From: a virus
Virus record (IMG/VR): IMGVR_UViG_3300000101_000034
Location: 11,008-38,384 of that record
DNA: 27,377 nucleotides
Strand: one strand, 5' to 3'
Of the stretch, positions 9,362-27,377 are shown piece after piece. Position 1 is the stretch's first letter; each line of letters opens with the position of its first letter. Both the position numbers and the translations under genes were made by a program. Under the pieces are notes generated by a model. It was not told where the DNA came from. It was given only the letters and a program-made list of their open reading frames with translations, and made no database searches.

Positions 9362-9369
9362 GAGGTTCT

Positions 9370-9705: not shown

Positions 9706-9719
9706 TAGGAGGGTATAAT

Positions 9720-11072
9720 ATGGGTTACGTAGGTAACAAAGCAGATTCTAATTATTCTTCTATTGATAAACAAATTATAACAGGTAACGGAGGAACTGGC
9801 TATACGCTCAGTCACTCTGTTGCTAACGCTAACGAGATTGAAGTATTTGTAAATAATGTAAGACAAGATCCAGGAGTAGCGTATACAGTTAACAATGCTG
9901 CACTGACAATGACAGGCGCAGTAGCTAACACAGATAGCTTTTATGTAGTCTTTATAGGTAAAGCAGTTCAAACTAAAGTACCAGCAGATGGATCTGTGGG
10001 TACAACTAAGATTGCTAATGCAGCTGTCAGTACAACTAAGATTGCTGATGATGCTGTAACAGAAATAAAAACATCTTTTATTGATAGTTCTACTGGTGCA
10101 CTTAACCTTCCAACAGGAACTACAGCTCAAAGACCCGGTTCCCCTGCTACAGGTTCTCAAAGATTTAACACTACAACTGTCAAAGCAGAAATATACAACG
10201 GTACAGAGTGGGCTAGCCTTAATGACTTTTCTCCATATTCTATTGGTTGGTTAGCTGTTGCTGGTGGGGGTGCTGGAGGTGGTACCTCCCAATACGGAGG
10301 CGATGGTGGAGGTGGAGGAGCTGGAGGATTTCGTACTTCTGCTGGAACTTCTGGCGGTGGAGCAAGTGCTGAAAGTGCAATAGATCTTACTAGTTCCAAA
10401 ACTTTTACTATAACAATAGGAGCTGGAGGAGCAGCTACATCGGCAGCTACTTCCCGTGGTGGGAGTGGCTCTAATACATCAATATCCGCCTCAGGATTAA
10501 CTACGATAACATGTATCGGTGGCGGTGGCGGTGGAACACGAAATACAGGTGTGCAAAATGGTCTCGATGGTGGATCAGGCGGTGGTAACGGTCAAAGAGA
10601 TGGAACTCTTGCTACTTCATCGGGAACATCAGGGCAAGGTTTTGGTGGTGGTCAATCGTCTGATGCCGCAGGTGCAAAAGGTGGTGGCGGAGGCGGTGGA
10701 GCTGGAGCAGTCGGTGCGACATCACCAAATAATAACGTTGGGGCTAACGGTGGTGTTGGAGTAGCTTCAACAATTACAGGCTCATCTGTGTACTATGCAG
10801 GTGGCGGAGGCGGAGCTGGAACTTCTGGTGGTACTGGAGGAAATGGAGGAGGCGGTGTTGGGACTAATAGTTCAACTGCTGGAGCTGGGTCTGCTAACAC
10901 TGGTGGCGGTGGAGGCGGCGGTGGAACTGCTGGAGCAGGAGGTACAGGAGTTGTAATATTTAGTATTCCAACGGCTAATTATTCTGGATCTGTAACTGGA
11001 TCACCTACTGTAACAACTTCTGGAAGCAACACGATTATTAAATTTACTGGGTCAGGAACATATATATCATGA
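9720..11072 (+). CDS. Tail fibre/adhesin with Gly-rich domain
   Basis: A 450-residue protein in three parts. Residues 1-85 form a beta domain (MGYVGNKADS, SLHSVANANEIEV-type strands, NNVRQDPGVAYTV) also seen in the 13747 gene product. Residues 86-170 hold VPADGSVGTTKIANAAV repeats and the NLPTGTTAQRPGSPATGSQ to YNGTEWASL module common in phage fibres. Residues 181-409 are more than half Gly in runs of two to eight. Such Gly-rich tips can pack as polyglycine II helices, as known for gp38-type adhesins of some T-even-like phages; whether this one does is unknown. The end (410-450) is a beta segment. Its stop overlaps the next start as ATGA. Confidence 0.82.
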   Translation: MGYVGNKADSNYSSIDKQIITGNGGTGYTLSHSVANANEIEVFVNNVRQDPGVAYTVNNAALTMTGAVANTDSFYVVFIGKAVQTKVPADGSVGTTKIANAAVSTTKIADDAVTEIKTSFIDSSTGALNLPTGTTAQRPGSPATGSQRFNTTTVKAEIYNGTEWASLNDFSPYSIGWLAVAGGGAGGGTSQYGGDGGGGGAGGFRTSAGTSGGGASAESAIDLTSSKTFTITIGAGGAATSAATSRGGSGSNTSISASGLTTITCIGGGGGGTRNTGVQNGLDGGSGGGNGQRDGTLATSSGTSGQGFGGGQSSDAAGAKGGGGGGGAGAVGATSPNNNVGANGGVGVASTITGSSVYYAGGGGGAGTSGGTGGNGGGGVGTNSSTAGAGSANTGGGGGGGGTAGAGGTGVVIFSIPTANYSGSVTGSPTVTTSGSNTIIKFTGSGTYIS

Positions 11073-11383
11073 GTTATTTTGCTAAAGTAGAAAACGGAAT
11101 TGTTACAAAAGTTATCGTTGCTGAAAACAGTTTCTTTAATACATTTGTTGACGATAGCGCTGGGAGTTGGATTGAAACTTCTACAACAGGACATATTAGA
11201 AAGAATTATGCAGGCGTTGGATATTCTTACGATAAAGAAAAAGATGCTTTCATCCCACCTAAACCTTATGCCTCTTGGACATTAGTTGAGGCTACGTGTC
11301 AGTGGCAAGCACCTATAGCATATCCAGATGACGGCAAAGAATATAACTGGGACGAGAGTTCAACTAACTGGGTGGAGGTGTAA
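11069..11383 (+). CDS. Small fibre-partner protein (MSYFAKVENGIV type, 104 aa)
   Basis: A 104-residue protein that overlaps the Gly-rich fibre gene by four bases (ATGA). It begins MSYFAKVENGIVTKVIVAEN, contains RKNYAGVGYSYDKEKDAFIPP and ends in YPDDGKEYNWDESSTNWVEV. This family is very frequent next to fibre genes in marine phages. Its role is not established: a chaperone, tip cap or small structural piece are all possible. The tight coupling to the preceding fibre gene suggests that the two proteins act together. Confidence 0.8.
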   Translation: MSYFAKVENGIVTKVIVAENSFFNTFVDDSAGSWIETSTTGHIRKNYAGVGYSYDKEKDAFIPPKPYASWTLVEATCQWQAPIAYPDDGKEYNWDESSTNWVEV

Positions 11384-11384
11384 C

Positions 11385-12458
11385 ATGGCATTAACTAAAA
11401 TAGGTAAAGAAGGAATTACAGGCATATCCAATGCTAGTAATGCCACTGCGATTACAATTACGTCAGATGAAAATGTAGGTATTGGAACAGGAAGTCCAAG
11501 TGGAAAACTTACTATTGAAGGTACTCAAAACAGTCTTGATAGTCAGTTAAAAGTTACAGCTTCTGGTCAAGTGTCTCAGTACATGGGTGGGAGCAGTGCT
11601 GTTGGACTAGCTCTGGGCCATGACCACGGGAGTTTACCAATAGTTTTTAAAACTGGCGTAAACTCTGGAACAGGTGTTACAGGTTCGGGTACAGAACGTA
11701 TGCGTATTGATGGAACAGGCAACGTAGGAATTGGACTTACAAGTCCTCAAGAATTACTACATTTAAAAGATGGCGATATTGCTGTGGGTAATGGTACAGC
11801 AAGTAATAACGCAGTTATAGGGAAAATTGGGTTTAGTACTGATTCATCAAACTCACGCTTTATTGGTATAGAGTCTTTTAGGGGTAGTGATGCCGCTAAT
11901 GCTGATTTAAGATTTCATACTTATGGTGGTGATGGAAATAACGGTGAACGTATGCGTATTGACACAGCAGGCAACGTAGGAATTGGAACTGCAAGTCCTG
12001 ACTGTATGCTCCATCTCAGCGGCGGTAACGAAGAAGCAAAAATTAAGTTTCAGGTTGGAACTGCTAATGCCGATAAGTTTAAAATTTATGCCTCTACAGC
12101 AGGTAGATTATATGTAAATTCTGACAATGGTAATACAGGTGTCTATCTTACCCACAATGGAACATCATGGACAGGTAATTCAGACGAGACTTTAAAAGAT
12201 AATATAACCTCTCTTGGCACTGTAGGGGACAAACTTAAAAATTATAGAACTTCTTATTTTACTTGGAAGGCTGATACCGAAACACCACCCAAAAGGAATA
12301 TTGGTTTTATTGCTCAAGATTGGGAAACTGATTTTCCAGAAGTAGTGACAAAAAAGGAAGGTGAAACTTTAGGTATGCAATACACAGAAACCATACCTAT
12401 ACTTTTAAAATACATCCAAGAGCTTGAAGCTCGCATCACATCATTGGAGGCAGGATAA
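11385..12458 (+). CDS. Tail fibre/spike with C-terminal S74 self-cleaving chaperone
   Basis: The start at 11385 (GGAGG at 11374-11378) is chosen over an in-frame ATG at 11328, because 11328 lies inside the previous gene. The product is 357 residues. Residues 1-35 are a leader (AITITSDENVGIGT). Two ERMRIDxxGNVGIG repeats follow (residues 104-117 and 188-201). The region 266-357 is an intramolecular chaperone of the endosialidase/S74 class: Ser266-Asp267 and Lys271 (SDETLK) match the Ser-Lys pair that cuts before Ser after trimer folding. NIGFIAQDWE and a final coiled coil (ELEARITSLEAG) follow. The chaperone would be released to leave a stable trimeric spike of about 265 residues. Confidence 0.85.
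   Translation: MALTKIGKEGITGISNASNATAITITSDENVGIGTGSPSGKLTIEGTQNSLDSQLKVTASGQVSQYMGGSSAVGLALGHDHGSLPIVFKTGVNSGTGVTGSGTERMRIDGTGNVGIGLTSPQELLHLKDGDIAVGNGTASNNAVIGKIGFSTDSSNSRFIGIESFRGSDAANADLRFHTYGGDGNNGERMRIDTAGNVGIGTASPDCMLHLSGGNEEAKIKFQVGTANADKFKIYASTAGRLYVNSDNGNTGVYLTHNGTSWTGNSDETLKDNITSLGTVGDKLKNYRTSYFTWKADTETPPKRNIGFIAQDWETDFPEVVTKKEGETLGMQYTETIPILLKYIQELEARITSLEAG
11694..11999 (+). repeat. Imperfect direct repeat in fibre gene
   Basis: GAACGTATGCGTATTGA followed by a GGCAACGTAGGAATTGGA block occurs at 11694-11747 and again at 11946-11999, 252 bases (84 codons) apart. A partial third copy is at about 11475. The repeats encode ERMRID-GNVGIG-SP units and are nearly identical in DNA, so recent duplication or conversion, or strong selection, is likely. 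Confidence 0.75.
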
Positions 12459-13558
12459 TGGCGATAAGCGAAATCAATGATAAGAGCTTAGCAGCATCTG
12501 CTGTTACTGCTACTAAGTTAGCAACATCAGCTGTTGATCTTACATCTAATAAAGTTACAGGTATTTTACCTGTAGCTAATACAGTTGCGAACTTGAGCCC
12601 AGGTAATAACTTAATAATTAATGGTGCAATGCAGGTGGCGCAGAGAGGAACATCAGCTACTGGGATAGGTGCATCAGATAACAATTTTCCTTGTGTTGAT
12701 AGAATGAAAGTTAGGTCAGAACTATCAGCAGGTCGTGCAACTGTTTCTCAAGTAGCAGATGGTCCTAGTGGCTTTACTAAGTGTTTAAAGTTTGCTTGTA
12801 CTACAACAGACACCTCTATTGCGGCAGGCGAAACTTTCTTTTTAACACTTCTCATTGAGGGCCAAGATTTACAGCAATTAAAAAAAGGCACCTCTGATGC
12901 TGAATCAGTTACTTTATCTTTTTATGTAAAAGGTAATGCAAGTGCTACCTATACTTTGGAAATGAAAGATCAAGATAACGGTAGAATTAATACACAAACA
13001 TTTGCAGTCACAACATCATGGAATAAAATATCTTTAACTTTTATACCAGACACAACTGGTGCTTTTGATGACGATAATCTTGCAAGTCTACAAGTAAATT
13101 TGTGGCTTCATGCTGGTTCTACTTATACAGGTGGAACATTTGCTAGTAATACTTGGGCATCAGAAGTCCAAGCAAATAGGGTTAGTTCAAGTTCAACATC
13201 TTTCTTGGACAGCACAAACAGAACATTCTTCATAACTGGAGTACAACTAGAAGTCGGCACAGTAGCCACACCATTTAATCACCGTTCATATGGGCAAGAG
13301 TTGGCTTTGTGTCAGAGGTATTATTACCAGCCAACATCCCGTTTTTATCCGGGGGTAGATAATGCACCCGGAGCTGGTCGTAACTATGTTATTTTCCCAG
13401 TTACCATGAGATCTGCTCCCTCTGTTACTCAGGCAAGTATAAGTGCAGGAACCCTAGGAACAATATGGACGGGAATAGACGTACACAACTATGAATTTAG
13501 TGCGGCCAGACCGGGAATTGGACTAGTCACACCCTATAAATTTGATGCGGAGTTATAA
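12458..13558 (+). CDS. Tail fibre with carbohydrate-binding-like sandwich domain
   Basis: A 366-residue protein with a TAATG junction to the previous gene. Residues 1-45 are a leader with DKSLAASAVTATKLAT. Residues 50-66 hold NLIINGAMQVAQRGTS, the common opening of fibre tips in marine phages and prophages. A beta sandwich follows (about 85-275) with strand pairs such as VTLSFYVKGNASATYTLEM, closing with FFITGVQLEVGTVATPF and NHRSYGQELALCQRYYY (256-290). This layout resembles galactose-binding-like/CBM folds and would bind surface sugars; ligand unknown. The last 75 residues form an extra, more variable tip. A receptor-binding role is inferred. Confidence 0.82.
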   Translation: MAISEINDKSLAASAVTATKLATSAVDLTSNKVTGILPVANTVANLSPGNNLIINGAMQVAQRGTSATGIGASDNNFPCVDRMKVRSELSAGRATVSQVADGPSGFTKCLKFACTTTDTSIAAGETFFLTLLIEGQDLQQLKKGTSDAESVTLSFYVKGNASATYTLEMKDQDNGRINTQTFAVTTSWNKISLTFIPDTTGAFDDDNLASLQVNLWLHAGSTYTGGTFASNTWASEVQANRVSSSSTSFLDSTNRTFFITGVQLEVGTVATPFNHRSYGQELALCQRYYYQPTSRFYPGVDNAPGAGRNYVIFPVTMRSAPSVTQASISAGTLGTIWTGIDVHNYEFSAARPGIGLVTPYKFDAEL

Positions 13559-13560
13559 TT

Positions 13561-13743
13561 ATGGATAATATGATAATAAATTCAGCAAAATACACACTAG
13601 GTGCAGAAGGAAATAACTCTGCTATTAATGCAACCATAGACGGACAAGAGATGTCCGTACCAATGGACCCTGCCAACAGGCACTACGCAGCTATCCTTGA
13701 ATGGGTGGCAGATGGAAATACAATCACAGCAGCAGGAGGATAG
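13561..13743 (+). CDS. Small fibre-partner protein (60 aa)
   Basis: A 60-residue protein starting two bases after the stop of the sugar-binding-like fibre gene. It has IINSAKYTLGAEGNNSAINATIDGQ (in two parts) and VPMDPANRHYAAILEWVADGN. I recognise the pattern (I-A-Y-L-x-x-E-G-N-N-S-A-I-N-A-T-I-x-G, then M-V-P-x-D-x-x-N-R-H-Y-A-I-x-E-W-V) from small genes beside fibre genes in marine phages, where it is uncharacterised. Likely an assembly partner or a minor tip piece. Ribosome site weak; likely coupled. Confidence 0.75.
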   Translation: MDNMIINSAKYTLGAEGNNSAINATIDGQEMSVPMDPANRHYAAILEWVADGNTITAAGG

Positions 13744-13746
13744 GAT

Positions 13747-14220
13747 ATGCCCTATGTAGGCAACCAGCTTGTTGCTGGAGAATTTATAAAGCTAGACTCT
13801 ATAACGGCGTCAGCTACAGCGACCTATGCATTAACAAGAAGCTCAGCAGCATTTAAACCCGCTACTGCAGCTCAGTTAATCGTATCGCTAAACGGAGTAA
13901 CACAAGAACCTGATGACGCGTATAGTGTTAGTGGAAGTAATATAATATTTTCACAGGCCCTTACATCATCAGATGTTATTGATTATATAGTTGCTCTAGG
14001 AGAAATCGGTAACAGTGTAGTTCCAAATGATGGATCTATTACTACTTCAAAACTTTCAAGTACTATTAGCCGTGGAGGCGCAGCAAATATCAGAGTTAAT
14101 CCAAGCAGTTTAACTACTAATACTACAATAGCTAGTGGAGAGAATGCACTAGTAGCTGGACCGTTCACAATTGGATCTAACATAACGTTGACAGTCAACG
14201 GTACATTTACGGTGGTATAG
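13747..14220 (+). CDS. Fibre-like protein with shared YVGN leader (157 aa)
   Basis: A 157-residue protein with a GGAGGATAGGA ribosome site. Residues 1-85 (MPYVGNQLVAGEFIKLDSI, then LIVSLNGVTQEPDDAYSVSG) align by eye with the N-terminal domain of the Gly-rich fibre: YVGN, then a strand with V-LNGV-Q-P-DAY-V, then VPNDGSITTSKL. Residues 100-157 are a short beta stretch (SLTTNTTIASGENALVAGPFTIG) common at fibre ends. It is therefore a fibre made of the shared attachment domain and a minimal tip. It may connect other fibres or be a reduced copy. Confidence 0.75.
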   Translation: MPYVGNQLVAGEFIKLDSITASATATYALTRSSAAFKPATAAQLIVSLNGVTQEPDDAYSVSGSNIIFSQALTSSDVIDYIVALGEIGNSVVPNDGSITTSKLSSTISRGGAANIRVNPSSLTTNTTIASGENALVAGPFTIGSNITLTVNGTFTVV

Positions 14221-14221
14221 T

Positions 14222-15007
14222 ATGAGTCAGATAAATACAGATAAAATAGCTTCCAATTCTGGAGGCACAACAGCATTAACAATTGCTGATAATGGTGGAG
14301 TAACAGCTAGTGGAACAGTAACAGCTACTTCGTATATTGGAAGTGGTGCTAGTCTTACTAGTCTCCCAGCAGCTAACTTAACTGGGACTGTAGCAACAGC
14401 AAGACTTGGTTCAGGAACGGCTGGTACTGGAAACTTTTTAAGAGGTGATGGTTCGTGGCAAACTGCTGGTTCAACAAGTGCTAGTGACTTGACTTCTGGT
14501 ACTCTGCCTACTGCTAGGCTGCCAGCAGGTAGTGTGTTGCAAGTTGTATCAACAACAACTACTAGTCAAAACAGCTTTACAAATACAAATGTTGATGCAT
14601 ACGCAGATATTGGTTTAAGTGTAAATATAACGCCTAAATCTTCTTCAAGCTATTTTTTAATTTCTTGTACTATTGGGATAGGAACTGTCGTAAGTTCGGA
14701 TAGCTGGGGTGGCGTACTATTTTTAAATAGCACTAAAATAGGTAATGGAGCAAATTCTGGCAATAGAAAAGGTGCTTTCCTTAAAGGAATAAAATATGGC
14801 CCTGATCCTAATCACAGTTTTGGTGCTATGAATAGTTTTTTATACAAAACCTCACTAACTCAGGGTACGCAAGTAACCTTTAAAGTGGGTGGGGTTGCTC
14901 AGGGAGGCACTGGATACATAAATAGGTCGTCAAACTTTACAAATACAGCATCCATATACGGTGCAACAGGCTCTTCAACAATATCAGTTATGGAGGTAGC
15001 AGTATAA
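14222..15007 (+). CDS. Tail fibre with TTALTIADNGG leader (261 aa)
   Basis: A 261-residue protein. Residues 1-35 are the shared leader (INTDKIASNSGGTTALTIAD). Residues 35-110 contain the fibre linker LPAANLTGTVATARLGSGTA and FLRGDGSWQ, and a second SDLTSGTLPTARLPAGS copy. Residues 110-261 are a globular beta-rich tip with alternating strands (YFLISCTIGIGTVV, GGVLFLNSTKIGNG). The linker type is known from many phage and prophage fibres. It is paired with the 97-residue gene that follows through a TAATG overlap. A receptor-binding tip is the likely role; the receptor cannot be read from sequence. Confidence 0.78.
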   Translation: MSQINTDKIASNSGGTTALTIADNGGVTASGTVTATSYIGSGASLTSLPAANLTGTVATARLGSGTAGTGNFLRGDGSWQTAGSTSASDLTSGTLPTARLPAGSVLQVVSTTTTSQNSFTNTNVDAYADIGLSVNITPKSSSSYFLISCTIGIGTVVSSDSWGGVLFLNSTKIGNGANSGNRKGAFLKGIKYGPDPNHSFGAMNSFLYKTSLTQGTQVTFKVGGVAQGGTGYINRSSNFTNTASIYGATGSSTISVMEVAV

Positions 15008-15300
15008 TGTTTAAGCATCAAGCTATATATAACACACATGAGAGTGTAATAAGTATTGTTAATGACATACCTAAAGATATTAACGGTTATGTTGTGACTT
15101 TAAATCAATCTTTAGTAGACACAGAAGAAGCTGTACTACAAGCAGCATACGATGCCTTAGAATATTCAAGCCTTCGCAAAGCTAAGTACGACTTACTCAA
15201 TCAAGATGAGATGCGGTATGACGATATAAAAAATTCAACTACAACTTGGATAGATGCCATTGATGCAATCAAAGCAGCTCACCCAAAACCAGCGGCATAG
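15007..15300 (+). CDS. Small helical fibre-partner protein (97 aa)
   Basis: A 97-residue protein overlapping the previous fibre stop by one base. The first 35 residues are beta-like (MFKHQAIYNTHESVISIVND). The rest is helical, with KYDLLNQDEMRYDDIKN and a helix ending in DAIDAIKAAHPKPAA. The R-KYDLL-x-QDEM-YDDI-x-NST-TWIDAID pattern resembles the C-terminal part of tail-fibre assembly proteins (helper chaperones), in which a helical end contacts the fibre. That makes a chaperone role more likely here than for the other small partners, yet it remains inference. Confidence 0.72.
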   Translation: MFKHQAIYNTHESVISIVNDIPKDINGYVVTLNQSLVDTEEAVLQAAYDALEYSSLRKAKYDLLNQDEMRYDDIKNSTTTWIDAIDAIKAAHPKPAA

Positions 15301-15309
15301 GAGGATATC

Positions 15310-16077
15310 ATGACAGGTATAATAAAAACAGATAAGCTCCAAAGCTCTGCGGGTAATGATGCATTAACAGTTGCTAGTAATGGAGTGGTTACTGCAGCTG
15401 GTAACGTGGCTATAAATGGTGCTTCTGCCACTCACCCACTTTCGGTAAATGGTCAAATTAAAAGCACGGGAGCTAATGGTGAAACTTTGCAACTACAAAC
15501 AAGTAGTCAATATAGTGGGATTTCATTTATAGGTTCTGATGGAACTAGAGATGCTATTATCGACTATGACCATACCAATGGTGCGTTAGGTTTAAAAGCT
15601 CACACTAGCTCACACTATATAAACTTTATGACAGGTGGGTACAGTGAAAGATTTAGAATTACTGACAATGGAGTAACCTTCAACGGAGACACAGCCGCAG
15701 CCAATGCTCTCGATGATTACGAAGAGGGGACTTGGACACCTACAGATGCATCTGGTGCTGGTATGACACTAATAGTTTGGCAATCTATTTATACAAAGAT
15801 TGGTCGTAAAGTATTCGTTGAAATTGGTTTTAAACTACCTTCAAATTCAAGCACGGCAGATCTTAAAATTGGTGGACTACCCTATGTGTCAATAGGGGGT
15901 GGAGACAATACAGGTGGTTTTGCACTATCGGGAACAAATTCAGGAAGATCAGATTTATGGCTTGTTGATAGAGGTCTATCATCATTTGGTGCTGGTACCT
16001 ACAATAATGTTTCTGCTAAAAATAATAACTATTCAAATAACCAAATAAAACTTTGCGGCAGTTATACTACAGCATAA
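15310..16077 (+). CDS. Tail fibre with NALDDYEEGTWTPT module (255 aa)
   Basis: A 255-residue fibre. Residues 1-32 repeat the leader (GIIKTDKLQSSAGNDALTVA). A middle part has beta strands (ISFIGSDGTRDAIIDYDH, then SERFRITDNGVTFNGDTAA). At 132-145 is NALDDYEEGTWTPT, a module seen in many marine phage fibres just ahead of the globular tip. The tip (145-255) is beta-rich with a conserved-looking IYTKIGRKVFVEIGFKL segment. Ends in SYTTA. The last 30 residues are Asn/Ser rich. Ribosome site TAGGAGGATATC is strong. Likely one adhesin of the set. Confidence 0.8.
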   Translation: MTGIIKTDKLQSSAGNDALTVASNGVVTAAGNVAINGASATHPLSVNGQIKSTGANGETLQLQTSSQYSGISFIGSDGTRDAIIDYDHTNGALGLKAHTSSHYINFMTGGYSERFRITDNGVTFNGDTAAANALDDYEEGTWTPTDASGAGMTLIVWQSIYTKIGRKVFVEIGFKLPSNSSTADLKIGGLPYVSIGGGDNTGGFALSGTNSGRSDLWLVDRGLSSFGAGTYNNVSAKNNNYSNNQIKLCGSYTTA

Positions 16078-16081
16078 ATTA

Positions 16082-16101
16082 TTACTAGTGGATTCTAGTA
16101 A
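16082..16101 (+). promoter_or_regulatory. Perfect 7-bp hairpin between fibre genes
   Basis: TTACTAG (16082-16088) pairs with CTAGTAA (16095-16101) around TGGATT, in the 41-base gap after the 255-residue fibre gene. No T-run follows, so termination is unlikely. It stands directly before the AGGAGAAA ribosome site of the next gene and may be an RNA processing or stabilising element, or a recombination scar. Confidence 0.5.
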
Positions 16102-16118
16102 CAGACAGGAGAAATAAA

Positions 16119-16364
16119 ATGGCACTAACAGAAAGTACAGTAGAAGATAAGATTGAAATTGTAGGCGAGTATAAACACGTTCAAGTAAGAACTGCTACAA
16201 TTATAAAGAAAGACGGAGTAGAACTTACTCGTAGTTTTTCAAGACACGTTATAGCGCCGAACGCTAACATAAGTTCAGAGTCAACTGAAGTAAAAGCGAT
16301 ATGTAATGCTGTTCATACAGACGCGGTAAAGACTGCGTATGCTGCATACTTAGCATCACTATAG
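16119..16364 (+). CDS. Small fibre-partner protein (81 aa)
   Basis: An 81-residue protein (MALTESTVEDKIEIVGEYKH...). A strand-rich first half with VQVRTATIIKKDGVELTRSF and RHVIAPNANISSESTEVKAI is followed by a helix (CNAVHTDAVKTAYAAYLASL). Proteins of this type (T-DKIEIV-E-KHVQVRT, then RHV-AP) are abundant in marine phages next to fibre genes and have no known function. It has a good ribosome site and lies between two large fibre genes. Assembly partner or minor virion protein. Confidence 0.78.
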   Translation: MALTESTVEDKIEIVGEYKHVQVRTATIIKKDGVELTRSFSRHVIAPNANISSESTEVKAICNAVHTDAVKTAYAAYLASL

Positions 16365-16376
16365 GAGGATATAATT

Positions 16377-17834
16377 ATGGCAGCAACATTAGGTGTTGAA
16401 ACAATACAACATACAAACGGAACAACAGCGTTAACAGTAGGTAGTACTGGTAATGTAGCTGTATCTGGTGATATAATTAAAACTACTGCGGGTACATCTA
16501 ATTTTGCAGCAGGTGCTAATGCTGGTAACTCAATACAAGCAGGAGCTACTCAAAATACTGTTGTAGGGGATGAAGCTGGTACTGCAATTACGACAGGCGA
16601 CCAAAATACTTTTGTAGGTAACATCGCAGGTGATGCTCTTACAGAAGGAAGTTCTAATGTTGCTCTGGGGTATTTTGCTTTAAGTACTGAAACTCACGGT
16701 TCTAACTCAACAGCAATAGGCAGAGGAGCATTAGCTCGTCAAGTTAATGGAAGTGTAACAAATACATACAACACAGCAGTAGGGGCGCAAGCTGGTGTAA
16801 ATGTAACCACAGGCACAAACAACACCATCATTGGTGCAACAGCAGGTGACGCATTAACTGTAGGTAATTCTAATACAGCAGTTGGACAAAACGCATTAAG
16901 TTTAGATACACAAGGTGATCTAAATACTGCAATAGGAATTGGTGCTTTACAGTCTCAAAACTTTACGAGTAGTACAGATTCTTATAACACAGCAGTCGGT
17001 GGTTTCGCAGGAGGCAGCAATACCACAGGACAAAACAACACTTTTGTGGGGGGTCTTGCTGGCAATAAAAACACTACAGCAAACAACAACACAGCAGTTG
17101 GTTACCATGCTGGAAAAGCAATGACTACAGGAGATACCAACTCTGCTTTTGGAAAAGACGCACTAGTAACTTGTACGACAGGAACAAATAACAGTGCGAT
17201 AGGTTCACGTTCATTGAATGACCTTACCTCTGCAGCTAATAACGCAGCTCTTGGAGATTTAGCTGGTGAAAATATAACTACAGGTTCTAATAACACTACC
17301 ATAGGAGTAGGTTGTAATGCAATTACTACGACAGGTGAAAATGTTACAATGGTTGGTCATCTTTGTAGAGCATCAGGCGCAGCTGTTAGCAACGAAGTTG
17401 TTATAGGCAGTAACGGCATGATAGGTAGAGGCGCAAGCACTGCATTTATTAGTGGTGGTAATGGGCCTGTATATGCAGGTAATAATGCTTCATCTTTTTC
17501 TACTACATCAGATAGACGCATTAAGAAAAACATTGTTGATAATAGTGTTGGCTTAGACGCTATTAATAAAATTCAAGTTAGAAACTTTGAATACAGAACA
17601 CCAGATGAAATAGAAGAGTTATCTTCAGATTGTGCTATTTTTCAAGAAGGCGTACAGGTAGGTGCAATAGCACAAGAAATGCAAAAAGTATTGCCAGAAT
17701 GTGTAACTCAAGAAAGTACAGGTGCATATACTGTTCAACAAGAGCCTATGGTCTGGGCGTTAGTAAATGCGATCAAAGAACTATCAGCAAAGAACGATGC
17801 TCTTGAGGCTCGCATCACAGCGTTGGAAGCTTAG
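16377..17834 (+). CDS. Adhesin with YadA-like repeats and S74 chaperone
   Basis: A 485-residue protein. Residues 1-32 are the shared leader (IQHTNGTTALTVGSTGNVAV). Residues 60-340 are about fifteen copies of a unit of mostly 17 residues, N-T-A-V-G-x-x-A-G-x-x-x-T-T-G-x-N, the signature of YadA/Hia head repeats (left-handed trimeric beta roll). Residues 378-485 are an S74 chaperone: Ser378-Asp379, Lys383 (SDRRIK), then GAIAQEMQKVLPE and a coiled coil LEARITALEA. Self-cutting before Ser378 would leave a trimeric stalk-like adhesin. Its chaperone and last helix resemble those of the 11385 gene. Last gene of the array; the next ATG follows its TAG directly. Confidence 0.88.
   Translation: MAATLGVETIQHTNGTTALTVGSTGNVAVSGDIIKTTAGTSNFAAGANAGNSIQAGATQNTVVGDEAGTAITTGDQNTFVGNIAGDALTEGSSNVALGYFALSTETHGSNSTAIGRGALARQVNGSVTNTYNTAVGAQAGVNVTTGTNNTIIGATAGDALTVGNSNTAVGQNALSLDTQGDLNTAIGIGALQSQNFTSSTDSYNTAVGGFAGGSNTTGQNNTFVGGLAGNKNTTANNNTAVGYHAGKAMTTGDTNSAFGKDALVTCTTGTNNSAIGSRSLNDLTSAANNAALGDLAGENITTGSNNTTIGVGCNAITTTGENVTMVGHLCRASGAAVSNEVVIGSNGMIGRGASTAFISGGNGPVYAGNNASSFSTTSDRRIKKNIVDNSVGLDAINKIQVRNFEYRTPDEIEELSSDCAIFQEGVQVGAIAQEMQKVLPECVTQESTGAYTVQQEPMVWALVNAIKELSAKNDALEARITALEA
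16554..17396 (+). repeat. YadA-like head repeat tract
   Basis: About fifteen degenerate 17-codon units inside the adhesin gene. From codon 221 the units start at intervals of exactly 17 residues (221, 238, 255, 272, 289, 306, 323); earlier ones are spaced by longer insertions. Conserved places are Asn-Thr, the hydrophobic-Gly pair and Thr-Thr-Gly. Confidence 0.8.
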
Positions 17835-18673: not shown

Positions 18674-19354
18674 ATGACACGTAAATTACTTTTCTCAATA
18701 GCATTTGCAGCTTTACTTGCAGGCTTTATGACACCGCTGATGATAACGAAAGCTTGGTCTGCAGATTCTAATACAGTCAGTTCAACTGTTGTAACAGATA
18801 AAGCACCGCCTACAGCTAATGCACCTTCAGTAGTAGTTAATAACTCTGATATATGTAAGTCAGGAGCTGCAGCATCTATACAGACACAGGTACTAGGTAT
18901 AGCTAGTGGTATAACAATCACTGATAAAAATTGTGAAAGACTTAAGCTGTCTAGATCTTTGTATGCTATGGGTATGAAGGTGGCTGCAGTATCGACTCTC
19001 TGTCAAGATCCTAGGGTCTTTGATAGTATGTGGATGTCTGGAACTCCCTGCCCGTTTATGGGTAAGATCGGTGATGAAGCTAAACTTATGTGGCAAAAGA
19101 ACGTAGAGTTTATACCTGAAGAATCTGAGATAAGATTACGTGAAGAGATAGCTATAATTGCTAGAGATGAAGAGGCTATTATAGCAGCTGATAAAATACG
19201 GTTAGATAAAATAGCTGCTGATAAAGAACTTAAGAATAAACATAAAGAAGCTTTAGCGCAATCGCGAGCTCAAGCTAGGGAGTTTCAAGATGCAGATAAG
19301 AAACGTATTTGGGCTAACCCTCTTGGCTTGCTCCTTATGGTCTTACTCCTCTAA
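18674..19354 (+). CDS. Exported four-Cys protein with helical tail
   Basis: A 226-residue protein with a signal peptide (MTRKLLFSIAFAALLAGFMT to AWSA at 30). The mature N-terminal domain carries four Cys (61, 87, 110, 126) in conserved-looking blocks: SVVVNNSDICKSGAAASIQT, ITDKNCERLKLSRSLYAMGM and MWMSGTPCPFMGKIGDEA. These blocks are familiar from secreted proteins of marine phages; function unknown. Residues 150-212 form a highly charged helix likely to be a coiled coil. The C terminus is hydrophobic (WANPLGLLLMVLLL), a possible membrane anchor. Its last 65 bases also encode the start of the next gene in another frame. Confidence 0.75.
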   Translation: MTRKLLFSIAFAALLAGFMTPLMITKAWSADSNTVSSTVVTDKAPPTANAPSVVVNNSDICKSGAAASIQTQVLGIASGITITDKNCERLKLSRSLYAMGMKVAAVSTLCQDPRVFDSMWMSGTPCPFMGKIGDEAKLMWQKNVEFIPEESEIRLREEIAIIARDEEAIIAADKIRLDKIAADKELKNKHKEALAQSRAQAREFQDADKKRIWANPLGLLLMVLLL

Positions 19355-20933
19355 CGCAGCTGAGCCATGTCCATCAGGTACTGTGGGTCTATGTGATCCA
19401 TCTGTATTAGAAACAATTGTAGAAACTATAACTGAGACTTCTCAGAATGATGGGCAAGGTACTTTAACAACAACAGTTACTGTAGTAGACACAACTACGG
19501 TTACAGTTACTAATGCAGACTCAGGTGATATTCTTGATGGTGATAATGGATTTGTGGCTTCTACTAAAGAAGGAGATATGGATTCAGACTGGGGCGGTGA
19601 AGGACCCGCTTCTATGCCGAGTGGCACAGGATGTGGCGCGCTAGGAACAGATAAGTGCGCAACAATAACCGGTAGTGGTAATACAACATCTACAATGGGT
19701 GTGCCTAATATGGGTACAACATTTAAGCAGACTATAGATATATCAGATTTAAATATGAGTAAAGGTGGTAAAACTACATATAGTATTAAAGTAGATAAGC
19801 AAGATGCTAGTGATAGTATATACATGCATATCACAGGTACTAATGGATCTTCAGTAAGCTTTGCAGGAACTGACGTGCTGTCAGCATCTGGCGTTAATTC
19901 AGGTTATGCTGAATATACAGGTGCATTTGACTTTGCAGATAGTCTTACTACAATAATAGTAGAGATAGGTGGTCGAGATATTAACTTAGCGATAGGGCCG
20001 TTATTCGACGACGTTAGTATAAATGTACTATATAATGTAATAAGTACTATTGTATTACAAACAATTACTACTGTTGAGCAATACGTATATAACAATGATG
20101 GAGCTACTGAGACAGAGATAGAGATCGTTAAAGATATATTTGATCATAACGATATAGTAGAACCTACAGATGGTGATATGTATTTTGAACCAATAGAACC
20201 TAATGAAGATATATCTTATGATACTATTGAAACAGAATTAGATATGCCTACATTTGAAGTAGACTTTGAAATGGAATTTGAATTACCAGATTTTGAAATT
20301 GAATTTGATATGCCAGATATAAACGTATCAGATATTGAAATGGAAATGGATTTAGAAGTAATGCCACCTCCAGATATGCCTAAACAACCAGAGCCTGATA
20401 TAGCTCCATCTACTAATGTAGAAAAACCGGAGCCTGAAATGCAGGTAACTGAGGTAAAGCCAGAACCAGAGCCTGAGGTAGAAGCTAAACCAGAGCCAGA
20501 ACCTGAGCCCGTGGATGAGCCTAATAATGATCCGGAACCTGATGTAAAGGAAGAAGTAAAAGAAGAGCCTACGGAAGAAATTAAAGAAATTAAAGAAGAA
20601 CCTAAAGAAATTAAAGTTGTAGATAAAAAAGAAGAGCCTGTTAAAGTTCAGAAGAAAATTGCTAAGCAGAAAGCTGGCAGTAAACTTGTTAAAGATATGG
20701 GCGACGCAAGTAGGTATGATTCAGGTAATCAGTTAAAGACTTTAATTATTATGAATGTTATAGCTGATACTAAAAGCTTCTTTGTATCTAAACAATTTAA
20801 AGAAATAGAAGGTTTTTTCACAAGTGAGGTATTACCAGACAATAGTATACCTGATAACAATGTTGCAGCATACTTATTATATGTTGATGATGGTGGAACT
20901 ATGAGTGATCTAATAGATCTGCAATATAAATAA
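19290..20933 (+). CDS. Large exported protein with Pro/Glu-rich spacer
   Basis: A 547-residue protein starting within the previous gene (AGGGAG at 19277-19282). It has an export leader (MQIRNVFGLTLLACSLWSYS to SNAA at 24; LLAC could also be a lipobox at Cys14). CPSGTVGLCDP follows (27-37), then a Thr-rich stretch, then a beta domain (about 140-250, IDISDLNMSKGGKTTYSIKV, FDDVSINVLYNVIS). Residues 290-360 are acidic strips of D-M-P-x-F-E-x-E-F type. Residues 365-450 are Pro-Glu/Lys-Glu rich, as in TonB spacers that cross the periplasm. The last 80 are a helical domain. Role unknown; could span the envelope or be a virion piece. Confidence 0.7.
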   Translation: MQIRNVFGLTLLACSLWSYSSNAAEPCPSGTVGLCDPSVLETIVETITETSQNDGQGTLTTTVTVVDTTTVTVTNADSGDILDGDNGFVASTKEGDMDSDWGGEGPASMPSGTGCGALGTDKCATITGSGNTTSTMGVPNMGTTFKQTIDISDLNMSKGGKTTYSIKVDKQDASDSIYMHITGTNGSSVSFAGTDVLSASGVNSGYAEYTGAFDFADSLTTIIVEIGGRDINLAIGPLFDDVSINVLYNVISTIVLQTITTVEQYVYNNDGATETEIEIVKDIFDHNDIVEPTDGDMYFEPIEPNEDISYDTIETELDMPTFEVDFEMEFELPDFEIEFDMPDINVSDIEMEMDLEVMPPPDMPKQPEPDIAPSTNVEKPEPEMQVTEVKPEPEPEVEAKPEPEPEPVDEPNNDPEPDVKEEVKEEPTEEIKEIKEEPKEIKVVDKKEEPVKVQKKIAKQKAGSKLVKDMGDASRYDSGNQLKTLIIMNVIADTKSFFVSKQFKEIEGFFTSEVLPDNSIPDNNVAAYLLYVDDGGTMSDLIDLQYK

Positions 20934-21735: not shown

Positions 21736-23451
21736 ATGCACAATATAGACTATCCTGGACCAGTAACTTCGCTATCACAAGAGATCGATGAGATGAAGTA
21801 TAGACAGAAAGGGGAAAGCTTTAACGATAAAATAAAACGAATAGCAAGAGCTTTAGCTGATGATACAGAACATCAGTATAGTCTGGAAGATATTCTAGGT
21901 ACCATGAGATTTCTACCAGCAGGTAGAGTACAATCATCAGTAGGATCTAATAGAATTACCACAGCATATAACTGCTTTGTATCAGGTACAATAGAAGATA
22001 GTATGCATAGTATTATGGAGAAGGCAAGTGAAGCAGCTGAAACAATGCGCAGAGGCGGTGGCATTGGTTATGATTTTAGTAAGATCAGACCAAGAGGCGA
22101 TAAAATTAAATCACTCGATAGCCAGTCTAGCGGGCCTATATCCTTCATGGGTATCTTTGATGCTGTGTGTCAAACCATCGCTAGTTCAGGACACAGACGT
22201 GGGGCGCAGATGGGTGTCCTCAGGATTGACCACCCGGACATTGAGGAATTCATTGCTGCTAAACGTAATTCTGATAAGCTTACTGGTTTTAATATTAGTG
22301 TAGGTATTACAGATAAATTTATGGAGGCCTTAACCAATGATGGGAATGATGATTTTCAACTCAGCTATGAGGGAATCGAATACAAAACAATATCAGCGCG
22401 TGAACTATGGGACTCCGTTATGGAATCGACTTGGGACTGGGCTGAACCGGGTGTACTATTTATTGACCGTATAAGTGAGATGAATAATCTTTTCTATTGT
22501 GAAGAGATAGTAGCTACAAATCCATGTGGTGAGCAACCGCTTCCACCCTATGGTGCGTGCCTTTTAGGTTCGTTTAATTTAACCAAATATATAGTCGACA
22601 ATACATTTAATTTTAAACAGTTTAAAGAAGATATACCGATTGTAGTGCAAGCTATGGATAATGTTATAGACAGAACCATATACCCACTCAAGCAGCAGTC
22701 TGACGAAGCCAAAGACAAGCGTAGAATGGGGCTTGGCGTTACTGGCTTAGCTAATGCAGGGGAAATGTTAGGGATGCCTTATGCGTCTCCTGAGTTCCTC
22801 GTATGGGCTGAAAAAATATTTGCATGTTTACGAGACAACTGCTATAAAGCATCAGCAAAACTAGCTGGTATTAAGGGATGTTTCCCACTTTATAGGGAAG
22901 AATATTTACAATCAAACTTCATTCGCACTTTACCTGCGTCTGTAAAAAAGGAGATACGTGAAAATGGCATTCGCAATAGCCATCTTATTTCTATCGCTCC
23001 CACTGGTACCATTAGCCTTGTGGCTGATAATGTTAGTGGTGGTATTGAGCCAACTTTTAGTCATGCTTATGAACGCATTATTCAAACATTTGATGGTCCT
23101 AAAACGGAAAATGTAGAGGATTATGCATACGCACGTGGAGTAAAAGGCCGATCAGCAAACGATATATCGGTACAAGATCACTTAGCTGTTCTATTATTAG
23201 CACAGCATTATGTAGACTCAGCGTGTTCAAAGACATGTAACGTTGGAGATGATACCTCATATGAAGATTTTAAACAAGTATATGTTGACGCATGGAAAGG
23301 TGGGGCAAAAGGCTGCACTACATTCCGCATGTCAGGTAAAAGATTTGGCATACTTAATACTATAGAAGAAACTGTAGAAATGGCAAAAGAAGAGGGACCA
23401 GTTGAAGCGTGCTTCATAGACCCTCAAACTGGACAAAGAGAATGTTCTTAA
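21736..23451 (+). CDS. nrdJ: Adenosylcobalamin-dependent (class II) ribonucleotide reductase
   Basis: A 571-residue enzyme that reduces ribonucleotides to deoxynucleotides with a thiyl radical made from adenosylcobalamin. The ten-stranded barrel core is complete: YNCF (Cys80), NPCGEQPLPPYGACLLGS with Asn262, Cys264 (radical), Glu266 and Cys275 (redox partner of Cys80), then APTGTISLVADNVSGGIEP, which holds phosphate. Spacing of 184 and 11 between the three Cys matches known NrdJ (188 and 11 in Thermotoga). The enzyme lacks an N-terminal ATP-cone, so allosteric activity control is absent. At the C terminus Cys559 and Cys570 may be the pair that re-reduces the site. It lies within the structural genes, not with replication genes. 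Confidence 0.93.
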   Translation: MHNIDYPGPVTSLSQEIDEMKYRQKGESFNDKIKRIARALADDTEHQYSLEDILGTMRFLPAGRVQSSVGSNRITTAYNCFVSGTIEDSMHSIMEKASEAAETMRRGGGIGYDFSKIRPRGDKIKSLDSQSSGPISFMGIFDAVCQTIASSGHRRGAQMGVLRIDHPDIEEFIAAKRNSDKLTGFNISVGITDKFMEALTNDGNDDFQLSYEGIEYKTISARELWDSVMESTWDWAEPGVLFIDRISEMNNLFYCEEIVATNPCGEQPLPPYGACLLGSFNLTKYIVDNTFNFKQFKEDIPIVVQAMDNVIDRTIYPLKQQSDEAKDKRRMGLGVTGLANAGEMLGMPYASPEFLVWAEKIFACLRDNCYKASAKLAGIKGCFPLYREEYLQSNFIRTLPASVKKEIRENGIRNSHLISIAPTGTISLVADNVSGGIEPTFSHAYERIIQTFDGPKTENVEDYAYARGVKGRSANDISVQDHLAVLLLAQHYVDSACSKTCNVGDDTSYEDFKQVYVDAWKGGAKGCTTFRMSGKRFGILNTIEETVEMAKEEGPVEACFIDPQTGQRECS

Positions 23452-23472: not shown

Positions 23473-26400
23473 ATGGCAGAAGAAATTATTTCTGTTACAG
23501 ATATAGCATCACAAGGAGTGGTAAAGGACACTCCTCCAGTTGCACTAAGCCCTAATGTATTTACAGACGTACGTAATATTAGATTTAAAGATGGTGCTAT
23601 TAGAAAAATAACCGGTGAGTTATTGCTTAATAACATTACAGAAGACTTAACACCGGCTAATGAAACCTTTGGACAAGTAAGATACTTTGCTGTATGGGAA
23701 AGTCCTAACAGAACTCCTACTGGTTGTTACTATATATGGGTAGTTGATTATGTCAGAGCTAATATAGTTGTTGGACAAAAGGTATATGTGCAAGATCACA
23801 CAGGAACTAAGCGAGATATAACACCTGCTACTATGACAAACGGATTTACGTTTACTATTACAGGTTGGCAACATACTATATTCTCAGGTGGATTTGCTTT
23901 CATTATTAATAATGGAATTGATAGACCTCATTATATATTAGATACTCCAGGTAATACTAATATAGCTAATCTAGTATTAGCTGAGTTACCTGGCTGGGAT
24001 GGGTATGATGTTAACTCTACTGTTATTACAGATACATTTAGTACAGGTAATATACTAACATTTGATTTAGGACAAAAAGTAGATTTTGTAAATACATCTG
24101 TTGAAGTTACTGTAGCAACCGCTGCAAGAACTGCACAAGCAGGTACACCAGCAGGTTCAGGTACTGTAAACACAGCTAACTTTGTGCCAGGTGCTTTACC
24201 AGCTTACGCAAGCCTGCCATCGGTCGGTGCTACTAATTTTCAATTATATAATGACGCAGCCACTAATACAACTATATGTTATATAGGTGGTATGACTGAT
24301 GGTAATGAAGTTATAGTTAAAATAAAATCTCGTGTACCTGTTAATGTAACTGCAGGTATTATACAATCATTCGGTAGTTTACTTGTAGCTGGAGACTTAA
24401 CAGAGAAAAGTAGTGCTAATGGTCAGATTGTTAGACGATTATCTGGTGTTGTTAAGACATCAGATGTAGCAGTGCCAGGCGCTGTACCTAATAACTGGGA
24501 TCCGTTTGCAGCTGGCGTTAGTACAGCTGATGAATTTACACTATCTGAAACAAATGTTATAACTGAGATGAAATCCTTACAAGGTAACATGTATATCTAT
24601 AGTACAAATAGTATACACGTTATGAGACTAACAGGTAATGTTAATATTCCTGTGCAGTTCGGCCCAGTTACTGATGAGTATGGTTGCTTAAGCCGTGGCT
24701 CAGTTATGGAATACGATGGTAAACATTTTGTTGTAGGTAACAATGATCTGTATACTTTCTCTGGTAATCCAGGAAACATACAATCTTTATCTGATGGTAA
24801 GATAAGAGAATACTTTTATAATAATTTAAATCCTATACATGAAGCTAAGATGTTTACACTACTTAACCATCATGAGAATGAGATATGGGTATGCTATCCT
24901 ACACTAGCTTCGTTCAGAGGTGAGTGCGATGAAGCATTACTATGGAACTATAGAGACAATACGTGGACTATAAGAGACCTTAATAACGTAGTATCAGGAG
25001 ATACAGGACCTATTAAAGGTGGAGGAGTACCTACAGCAGTAGTAGCTATCACAGGTAATTCAGGTAATGCTGGATATACTAATGTAGGTAAACGAGAAAC
25101 TCAAACTGTAACTATAAATGGATCATCACCTAAAGCTACAGTAGGTACTAAAGCAATTAAGACAGTTGCCGTTGGTACGTTTAGTAACTTTACAACTGAT
25201 GTTCTTGAGTTAGTAGATGTTACAGTAACAGGTTCAACAGGACCAAGTACTGTTAATGCTATTAATACACTAACGTTTCCTGCTAGCGCTACATTTACAT
25301 ATGATAGAGATGGCTCTACATATCTCGACGGTGGTGCTAGTGCTATCATTAACGGTGATGCATCAATAGGTAACGTAAGTTTTCCTGCAATAACTATACT
25401 TGGTACAAGCCAAGCAGATGGCGCTACAATAAATATGACAATATTCGCTGCTGCAGTAAGAGATTATATAAACAGTAATAATGCTTTGGCTGATTTTACA
25501 GCAACATCATCAACCAATGTACTGACGCTTACTTCAGATGTTCCAGGGCCTAGAGCTTATACTACATCTACTTTTGCGATATCAGGAGGAGCGACAAGCA
25601 ACTTAACAATAGCTACATCTACAGCAGGTGTTGGCGTGTATGGTGTGACAGCAGCTCTTAGTCCTGCTATATCCATGCGAATTACAGCTCCGGCTGTGGC
25701 AGGTGTTCATGCGGCAATTGACGAAACAATACTTACAGCAGTCAATCTTACAAATCAAACGCAGATTCAAGCAGATGTTATCACTAAGCTTCAAGCTCTG
25801 GCTGTTTTTAATGGTAGTAATAGTGCTATATATTCTGTAGGCACTAGTGGTAGTGCCATACGATTTACAGCTATAAACGGTGGTAACTATGGAGCTTTAA
25901 CGATAGCGTTCAGCACTACATACGGTGGTACTTCATATACAGAGACTACATTTGGTGGTAACTTAACTTCTAATATTTCAGTTGTTACAACAGGTGTTGA
26001 CAATAATACACCTCAACCACTAATGACGGTGTCGTTTCCAGACGGTACAACTACAGGTTCAGTAATACTTACAGGTACTCAATCACGAGCATCAGTAGTA
26101 ACTGCGTTAAGTACACTTATAAATGCTAACGCGAATTGGGCCACAAGTACAGGCACAGGATTAGTAACAGCTAATGCAGCAGCAGTTGGTGTACAATCAT
26201 CAAACTTTGATGTAGTTATTACAAGCATAGGCACGTTACCTACAGGATTTGCTAGCTCTACATTTACAGAAGCTCAAACAAGAGCAGGTGTAGCAGCCGC
26301 TAGTACTACAGATACTATAACATTAACGCCACCTATTGGTTCAGCAGTTACAGTAAACTTTAATAACACAGGTACATATCCTGCGTATGATCCTGATTCA

Positions 26401-27377
26401 GGCGGAAGTACAGCACCAGTTACGGCAACTCAAATTGCTACAGCATTACAAGCTGCATGGAATGCGAGTGGATCTAGTACAGCATATTTCTCTGTAGCTA
26501 GAACAGGAGCAGTACTAACTTTCACTAGTGTATCACGAGCTGATATAGTAGGTGAATTTAGTTATTCAGTTGCTCCAGGTAATACACGTACAGGTACTTT
26601 AGTATCTCCGTTAATTACAAACTCAGTTCCAAGTAACATAGTAGTTGTAGCAGGAATAGCTCCTATATTTTCTAAGATGACACGTGTTACAATTACTATT
26701 AATACAGCATCTGGAAGTAGTGTAATATTTGATAGACACTATGGTGAAGGACCTGGTCGATTACTTGATCCAGACTTTACCGCAGGTATAAGCGATTCAA
26801 CTTACGGTGATTCAGGTGCAGCTAGTGATGCAGCATATCTTAATTTATATTATGATCCTGCTAAAGACTTAGCTAGAACTAATACATCAGAGCAAGCTAA
26901 ACCTAATGGTACAGTTGCTAATACTCAAACAGCTTTACTTAAAGTGCTAACAGATATTAGTACACAAGACGCGCTTGAGCTTACACCTGATAGTACATCA
27001 GCTCCAACTAGTATTATAATTAATCCTAGACAATTTGGAAGTACAGCTAAATATGTTACAGGTTTCTCTCCAGCTACAGAGGTTGTAGCCTCAAGAGTAG
27101 CTCCGACAGTACCTCAAATATTAGCCGTTGCTATAGGTAACACAGTTGCAACAACAGGACCTACGTTTAATACTTCTGGTACTGCTATAAATACTACATT
27201 TAATATTGTAAGATCTTGGTCTTCTACGCAAGTTAACCCTAATGAGATATTTCCTATATTCGCACAGAGTGGATATGTCAGTGGTGTATTGTTTAACAGG
27301 TTACGTGCAGCTGACTTAGGTCATGACTTCGGTGGTACGGCTTATATATCATATGCTGAACGAGAGCAGATGTCTAT
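23473..27377 (+). CDS. Tail nozzle-like protein with inserted repeat domains (3' truncated by window)
   Basis: An ATG at 23473 behind GGAGG (CGGAGGAGTGAC) opens a frame that stays open to the end of the window, at least 1,301 codons. The N terminus has LSPNVFTDVRNIRFKDGAIRK, the hallmark of P22 gp10 / T7 gp12-type nozzle (tail tubular B) proteins, with a further beta-propeller-like stretch to about residue 520 including YGCLSRGSVMEYDGKHFVVG and GNNDLYTFSGNPG. Residues ~635-1035 hold four degenerate alpha/beta repeats. After that, from about 1040, comes a different region containing YNLYYDPAKDL-like text and a conserved-looking AQSGYVSGVLFNRLRAADLG, possibly the return to the nozzle. It would extend the adaptor into the short tail. 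Confidence 0.82.
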   Translation, partial: MAEEIISVTDIASQGVVKDTPPVALSPNVFTDVRNIRFKDGAIRKITGELLLNNITEDLTPANETFGQVRYFAVWESPNRTPTGCYYIWVVDYVRANIVVGQKVYVQDHTGTKRDITPATMTNGFTFTITGWQHTIFSGGFAFIINNGIDRPHYILDTPGNTNIANLVLAELPGWDGYDVNSTVITDTFSTGNILTFDLGQKVDFVNTSVEVTVATAARTAQAGTPAGSGTVNTANFVPGALPAYASLPSVGATNFQLYNDAATNTTICYIGGMTDGNEVIVKIKSRVPVNVTAGIIQSFGSLLVAGDLTEKSSANGQIVRRLSGVVKTSDVAVPGAVPNNWDPFAAGVSTADEFTLSETNVITEMKSLQGNMYIYSTNSIHVMRLTGNVNIPVQFGPVTDEYGCLSRGSVMEYDGKHFVVGNNDLYTFSGNPGNIQSLSDGKIREYFYNNLNPIHEAKMFTLLNHHENEIWVCYPTLASFRGECDEALLWNYRDNTWTIRDLNNVVSGDTGPIKGGGVPTAVVAITGNSGNAGYTNVGKRETQTVTINGSSPKATVGTKAIKTVAVGTFSNFTTDVLELVDVTVTGSTGPSTVNAINTLTFPASATFTYDRDGSTYLDGGASAIINGDASIGNVSFPAITILGTSQADGATINMTIFAAAVRDYINSNNALADFTATSSTNVLTLTSDVPGPRAYTTSTFAISGGATSNLTIATSTAGVGVYGVTAALSPAISMRITAPAVAGVHAAIDETILTAVNLTNQTQIQADVITKLQALAVFNGSNSAIYSVGTSGSAIRFTAINGGNYGALTIAFSTTYGGTSYTETTFGGNLTSNISVVTTGVDNNTPQPLMTVSFPDGTTTGSVILTGTQSRASVVTALSTLINANANWATSTGTGLVTANAAAVGVQSSNFDVVITSIGTLPTGFASSTFTEAQTRAGVAAASTTDTITLTPPIGSAVTVNFNNTGTYPAYDPDSGGSTAPVTATQIATALQAAWNASGSSTAYFSVARTGAVLTFTSVSRADIVGEFSYSVAPGNTRTGTLVSPLITNSVPSNIVVVAGIAPIFSKMTRVTITINTASGSSVIFDRHYGEGPGRLLDPDFTAGISDSTYGDSGAASDAAYLNLYYDPAKDLARTNTSEQAKPNGTVANTQTALLKVLTDISTQDALELTPDSTSAPTSIIINPRQFGSTAKYVTGFSPATEVVASRVAPTVPQILAVAIGNTVATTGPTFNTSGTAINTTFNIVRSWSSTQVNPNEIFPIFAQSGYVSGVLFNRLRAADLGHDFGGTAYISYAEREQMS
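25368..26580 (+). repeat. Four degenerate tandem domain repeats in nozzle gene
   Basis: Units start at about 25368, 25669, 26018 and 26312 (spacing 100-116 codons). Each has a strand with a Pro (SFPAIT, RITAPAV, VSFPDGT, TLTPPIG), a helix (AAVRDYINSN, ADVITKLQAL, SVVTALSTLI, QIATALQAAW), a strand (NVLTLTSD, SAIRFTAI, GLVTANAA, AVLTFTSV) and a last strand. DNA identity is low, so the duplication is old. Confidence 0.65.

Follow-up and report, generated by a model that had tools for sequence, protein, structure and literature searches.

The tail nozzle gene of a short-tailed phage, beginning at position 23473 of a 27,377-nucleotide stretch of viral DNA, carries a large modular insertion at the position where related phages dock their short tail fibre, and by alignment the docking motif is gone. 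The stretch (hereafter the window) spans positions 11008-38384 of the 44,152-base virus record IMGVR_UViG_3300000101_000034. Host sensing by short-tailed phages is generally attributed to fibres that dock on adaptor and nozzle, and the phages that bear the insertion also appear to have lost the short-tail-fibre gene. Because motif and gene are both missing, we lean, by a small measure, towards the view that a covalent, modular arm of the nozzle took the place of the docked fibre.

By its sequence, the gene at 23473 belongs to the LUZ24/SU10-type nozzles. Its open reading frame (ORF) holds 1,301 codons on the forward strand and is still open at the window end; in the full record it runs on, through a codon 1302 that lies directly past the window and contains one N, to a stop after 1,427 codons. 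A preliminary description of this DNA, made from its letters alone, had proposed a P22/T7-type nozzle of more than 1,300 residues left open at the end, and both points are borne out. In profile searches, the N-terminal half matched phrog_3287 (expectation value, E, 3.2e-46), the solved nozzle 9nwi_Y of Pseudomonas phage Pa223 (2.7e-35), VP1 gp16 (3-6e-22) and the SU10 'Surface protein' (2.8e-11). We then aligned with hhalign a profile of 17 insert-bearing family members to a profile of 7 insert-free nozzles, with LUZ24 (gp56) first. Residues 1-514 of the window nozzle correspond to LUZ24 residues 1-355 (E 6.8e-44), i.e., the platform and propeller part, and residues 1249-1427 to LUZ24 residues 377-513 (probability 87.7, E 3.4e-6), i.e., the C-terminal platform segment. 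Homologous core is thus present on either side of about 734 residues (515-1248) that stand in place of 21 LUZ24 residues (356-376). The C-terminal parts of the SU10 and Pa223 nozzles were also matched in a fold search with the predicted model of an orthologue (L004). The insert-free nozzles are 513 (LUZ24 and JB8), 529 (Mel-JY34), 554 (VPp1), 559 (APT65), 568 (LAh_8) and 581 (TacPo2) residues long. With core sequence returning at residue 1249, a C-terminal extension is ruled out.

The position of the insertion is that of the fibre dock. SU10 grips its short tail fibre with a loop projecting from blade 1 and bearing Trp839, Trp847 and Trp857 (PMC9509320), and this loop aligns to the interval that the insert replaces. 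The nozzle features, all on the forward strand, are as follows.

23473-25014, forward: N-terminal part of the nozzle core, residues 1-514, platform strands and propeller (hhalign, phrog_3287, 9nwi_Y).
23998-24342, forward: second, smaller extra within the core, residues 176-290, not in LUZ24 (gap in the hhalign alignment, segment identities).
25015-27216, forward: insertion in full, residues 515-1248, at the place of the dock for the short tail fibre (hhalign; SU10 dock-loop residues, PMC9509320; no dock aromatic triplet).
25147-25173, forward: strand, residues 559-567, common to two-module and four-module proteins and presumably the strand that opens module M3 (E55-63 in the DSSP assignment of the model; 574-851 junction).
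25198-25605, forward: predicted module M1, residues 576-711, helix near 655-669 (model; held-out hidden Markov model, HMM).
25606-26010, forward: predicted module M2, residues 712-846, helix near 762-774 (model; held-out HMM).
26011-26304, forward: predicted module M3, residues 847-944, helix 872-884, the L074 equivalent of which matches domains of sheaths, flagellins and T7-type nozzles (model, fold search, held-out HMM).
26305-26658, forward: predicted module M4, residues 945-1062, helix 985-998 (model; held-out HMM).
26659-27216, forward: M5, a divergent and likely fifth module, residues 1063-1248, with an additional loop and a helix at 1151-1162 (strand and helix order in the model; weak profile match).
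27217-27375, forward: nozzle core resumed, residues 1249-1301, continuing to 1427 past the window (hhalign; SU10 and Pa223 matches to the model).

The four repeats that the preliminary description placed after the conserved N-terminal part do exist, but they form an internal insertion, after which the core resumes at 27217, and the units begin near 25147-25198 rather than at 25368. That description had overlooked both the location of the insert at the dock and the absence of the fibre gene.

To count dock motifs, we scanned IMG/VR with a nozzle alignment led by Mel-JY34, which gave 80 loci, all insert-free (an unthinned set that includes near-copies); a scan with the Mel-JY34 nozzle alone found no loci. 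An aromatic triplet, defined as three spaced Trp, Tyr or Phe residues in the dock interval, occurs in 77 of the 80 insert-free nozzles, as in LUZ24, and in none of 44 insert-bearing ones. The distant nozzles DSL-LC04, ctpbd312 and C72C1 were kept out of these counts. At least three Trp are found in the dock interval of 33 of the 80. As to composition, the triplet is YYY in 34 of the 80 nozzles, WWW in 22 and FFF in 2 (YYY or FFF, e.g., in L187, L198 and L224-L232).

The fibre itself was sought through its N-terminal domain, which is common to the fibre genes adjoining the nozzle in LUZ24, JB8, SU10, VPp1, LAh_8, APT65 and TacPo2. An HMM of these seven domains found an eighth in Mel-JY34 (5e-17), and leave-one-out versions recovered all 8 known domains at 7e-16 or better. 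The HMM had no hit in the record of the window, even at E up to 10, and an alignment search found the domain in none of 25 insert-bearing records, the longest about 60 kb (five of 55-60 kb), which may be incomplete. The same alignment search recovered all 8 records that supplied the model, which is a check rather than independent evidence. Among independent loci that extend 4 kb or more upstream of the nozzle, the domain is present in 38/38 insert-free and 0/41 insert-bearing cases. It is missing from 7 of the 63 insert-free loci with at least 1.5 kb upstream, all 7 of which have less than 4 kb; the other 17 of the 80 had less than 1.5 kb and were left out. For DSL-LC04, ctpbd312 and C72C1, the domain was not found in the available stretch.

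The insert was modelled with AlphaFold2 in the orthologue L004 (91 % identical; residues 505-1427, 40 sequences). The model has a mean predicted local distance difference test score (pLDDT) of 73.6 and a predicted template modelling score (pTM) of 0.38, with module blocks mostly at pLDDT 80-93. It presents an order of strands, helix and strands four times and probably five, which points to four divergent modules of one strand and helix order followed by a likely fifth. To see how far sequence alone recovers them, we built HMMs from three modules and searched for the one held out; reversed decoys reach about 0.1. For held-out M4, recovery was clear in the window protein, with an independent E-value of 3.2e-5 against 0.70 in L040. 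The other matches were weak, i.e., M2 at 0.031 in L040 and 0.44 in the window protein, M1 at 0.29 and M3 at 0.49 in L040 only (M1 not being recovered whole in the window protein), and all fell at the correct place. Because these scores are weak relative to the reversed decoys, the support for M1 and M3 comes from position and structure, not from score, and the description as divergent repeats rests more on fold order and register than on sequence. Pairwise comparison of the module profiles was likewise weak (best pair R1-R3, probability 28.9 %; R1-R5, 2.1 %). The R1-R3, R1-R4, R3-R4 and R1-R5 matches begin in the register of the model helices, and reversed controls equalled or exceeded the forward match in R3-R4, R2-R3 and R2-R5, among other pairs, so that homology of all units is unproven by sequence alone. 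The preliminary description had given all four units the same order of strand, helix, strand and strand; the model agrees on the order, but profile-based repeat detection is mostly weak. It was right that the repeats have no close DNA identity: the direct repeats detected are all short and weak, and a recent DNA duplication of the units is unsupported. Nor does base composition mark the insert as foreign, its guanine-cytosine content (0.37-0.42) showing no clear difference from that around it (0.36-0.40).

The modules also seem to be nested. In two-module proteins, residue 574 is joined to residue 851 and residues 575-850 are cleanly absent. The simplest reading of this junction is that M1 and M2 lie within a loop of M3.

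One module has a recognisable fold. In the model of L074, residues 554-667, where the counterpart of M3 lies, match the sheath of Milano (Z 9.1, root-mean-square deviation, rmsd, 2.8, 105 residues aligned), and this region with its near surroundings also matches the sheaths of A-1(L) (Z 9.4) and Mu (Z 8.5) and the flagellin 4nx9 (Z 8.8). Residues 558-662 match the P-SCSP1u nozzle 8i4m (Z 10.0, rmsd 2.3, 89 aligned), and the module region matches the Kp7 nozzle (Z 8.2) and T7 gp12 residues 146-248 (Z 7.4). The same folds match the L004 model across the range 53-438, with only about 105-109 residues aligned. As modelled, this module therefore has the fold of the outer domains of tail sheaths (Milano, 7-7-1, Mu and A-1(L), Z 8.0-10.7) and of the flagellins FliC and FliD (4nx9 FliC, Z 8.7-8.8), and of the T7 nozzle tip. 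Sheaths and flagellins are different proteins in different assemblies, and a common fold does not mean a common function. In T7 gp12 and in P-SCSP1u gp23 (residues 148-240), the nozzle carries a single such domain, which by residue numbers is the tip leaving blade 3 and not the dock, and these phages bear other fibres. Antibody-like matches to the L004 model reach Z 3-4 and cover model residues 88-219 only. The L074 propeller is modelled at a mean pLDDT of 65.7; its best match, 8zkk_O, has Z 11.7 but rmsd 13.3. Sequence families gave little: the insert has no confident match in Pfam, PHROGs or NCBIfam, and the possibility raised at the outset, that it is part of some standard family of long nozzles, found no support there. 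The best family match was phrog_18992, with no function given (0.0012 at best, in 14 of 40 members), and when the insert was searched by tblastn in 50,697 phage records, nothing matched at E up to 1.

The modular insert is a conserved family trait. A first collection gave 53 long nozzle proteins including the window's own, and the total rose to 68 distinct insert-bearing nozzle genes, most of them on records that are fragments. The complete genes comprise 44 with four modules, 5 with two and 3 long ones of 2,116-2,137 residues. The long nozzles L081 (2881-9291, 2,137 residues) and L084 (7001-13348, 2,116 residues) hold extra sequence between M1 and M2, about 600 residues in L081, which includes a Gly-rich stretch and possibly an adhesin-like domain, with no match in Pfam. 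Mean identity among 36 four-module proteins (630 pairs) is 66-75 % in the modules, 77 % in residues 1-175 and 79 % in the propeller. The most variable part is the core extra at residues 176-290 (about 110-115 residues, 64 %), which is possibly a tip domain. One pair of nozzles, L087 (6992-10492) and L088 (6992-10543), is 62-68 % identical in the core and 30 % in residues 176-290, but 88-93 % from the linker through M3 and M4. Such a diverged core with a near-identical linker and modules suggests that the insert is exchanged between phages as a cassette by recombination. In the tree, insert-bearing proteins form one clade. The base of the tree is unresolved, and the two-module label needs two changes, although one is also compatible, so modules may have been either gained or lost. 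A scan of genome contigs found no relative, and hence no host is linked to the family.

Enlargement of the nozzle as such is already known, contrary to the initial suggestion that domain gain in the nozzle is rare. SU10 gp17 (Kuravirus, phrog_14417) belongs to the same core family and, with 1,005 residues, is likewise enlarged by four extra domains, which are immunoglobulin (Ig)-like; it differs in that these enter between propeller blades 2 and 3, and the dock loop and short fibres are kept (PMC9509320). The window insert lies after residue 514, past the propeller. The crAss001 muzzle gp44 has two Ig-like domains with nested insertions (PMC10172136), and the tip of the T7 nozzle is a further case. 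For the site, the module fold, the length series and the joint absence of dock and fibre, no report was found in the openly licensed literature searched.

Two other genes of the window belong to this comparison.

21736-23451, forward: ribonucleotide reductase gene, directly upstream of the nozzle gene, in the slot of the fibre gene in most named insert-free relatives (phrog_84, 2.3e-134).
7119-7988, forward: adaptor protein, 289 residues (phrog_2941, 1.2e-19; alignment).

The reductase gene is the upstream neighbour in 13/13 insert-bearing loci examined (with a 94-residue ORF intervening in one), whereas LUZ24 has its short-fibre gene adjacent to the nozzle gene. By alignment, the adaptor has about 60 extra internal residues relative to those of LUZ24 (208 residues) and JB8 (207), which might possibly be the place of a second fibre dock. 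Consecutive fibre-like ORFs occupy window positions 7988-17834, several with similar 'TDKI...ALTV'-like starts. One of them (16377-17834) matches many tail spike and fibre PHROGs, and two have an end that we take to resemble the S74 chaperone. Further on, a 547-residue ORF (19290-20933) has by eye a signal-peptide-like start and a Pro/Glu/Lys-rich stretch like TolA/TonB linkers; it has no PHROGs match.

The strongest rival to a fibre-replacing arm is that the insert is an enlarged dock, i.e., an outer platform of the nozzle that clamps unrelated tail fibres together with the extra adaptor domain. Both readings start from what is observed, namely that the short-fibre dock has given way to a modular insert, and the fiber dock of T7 is likewise located between the propeller end and the platform (PMC6702177). 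The longer adaptor, the fibre-like genes that follow it and the only moderate variability of the modules fit such a dock as well. Yet 734 residues in 2 to more than 5 modules far exceed what this would need, the T7 dock being described as one small jelly-roll, and the fold searches returned no jelly-roll dock match, which does not exclude one. We regard an enlarged dock as unlikely, although well above the remaining explanations. One of these takes the insert for a tail-extension device, folded back in the virion and straightened during genome delivery, as the SU10 Ig-like domains act (PMC9509320). SU10 and the window nozzle alike have four serial domains, and one module has the fold of a T7-type nozzle domain, but the SU10 domains enter elsewhere than the dock site, and the extended SU10 nozzle is described as consisting of nozzle proteins and the short fibres, which the insert family lacks. 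On balance this is improbable. Most improbable of all is that the insert passively decorates or stabilises the surface and has no part in fibre replacement, the fibre loss being an unrelated trait of the lineage: a single clade could reflect one coincidence, but the insertion falls exactly on the dock and abolishes it, and the length variants have kept intact reading frames in 52 complete genes.

Several points weigh against the arm as a fibre replacement. As the insert is confined to one clade, dock loss, fibre loss and insert gain may be a single event and their link incidental. The modules are not hypervariable (66-75 % identity versus 77-79 % in the N-terminal core), a pattern that suits a structural part better than a tip that binds receptors. 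The models are of single chains (pTM 0.38 and 0.33), and the arm is not seen on an assembled nozzle. Finally, host binding may not need the arm, given the other fibre-like genes at 7988-17834.

With these reservations, we favour the arm, beyond what is directly observed (the homology, the position, conservation and length classes of the insert, the fold of one module, and the absence of dock motif and fibre gene). By homology the gene product is the nozzle, probably hexameric, of a short-tailed phage, and it would carry an arm of four to five small beta/alpha modules between the propeller end and the C-terminal platform strands. This arm would occupy the site of the short loop that clamps the trimeric short tail fibre in LUZ24/SU10-type nozzles, and a hexamer would be ringed by six fixed arms. 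Arm length would change stepwise, partly through modules inserted within other modules. The arms might then do the fibre's job, by contacting the host, bracing other fibres, or passing force or a signal to the propeller gate and channel opening. The collar or extra host contacts imagined in the preliminary description are possible and close to this explanation. A fuller scenario is more tentative, and we would put it somewhat below the arm itself: a plug-in, non-covalent trimeric fibre would have been converted to a covalent nozzle arm that grows and shrinks by nesting and is swapped as a cassette, with the fold of the T7 nozzle tip, sheaths and flagellins moved from the tip to the dock.

If the arm did replace the fibre, an uncultured family with covalent arms and without a docked fibre would be a natural test of the need for the short fibre, and of the route by which force or a signal reaches the channel gate. 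The two-module, four-module and long versions would form a series for relating arm length to the host surface, and one fold would recur in sheaths, flagella and nozzles at different positions.

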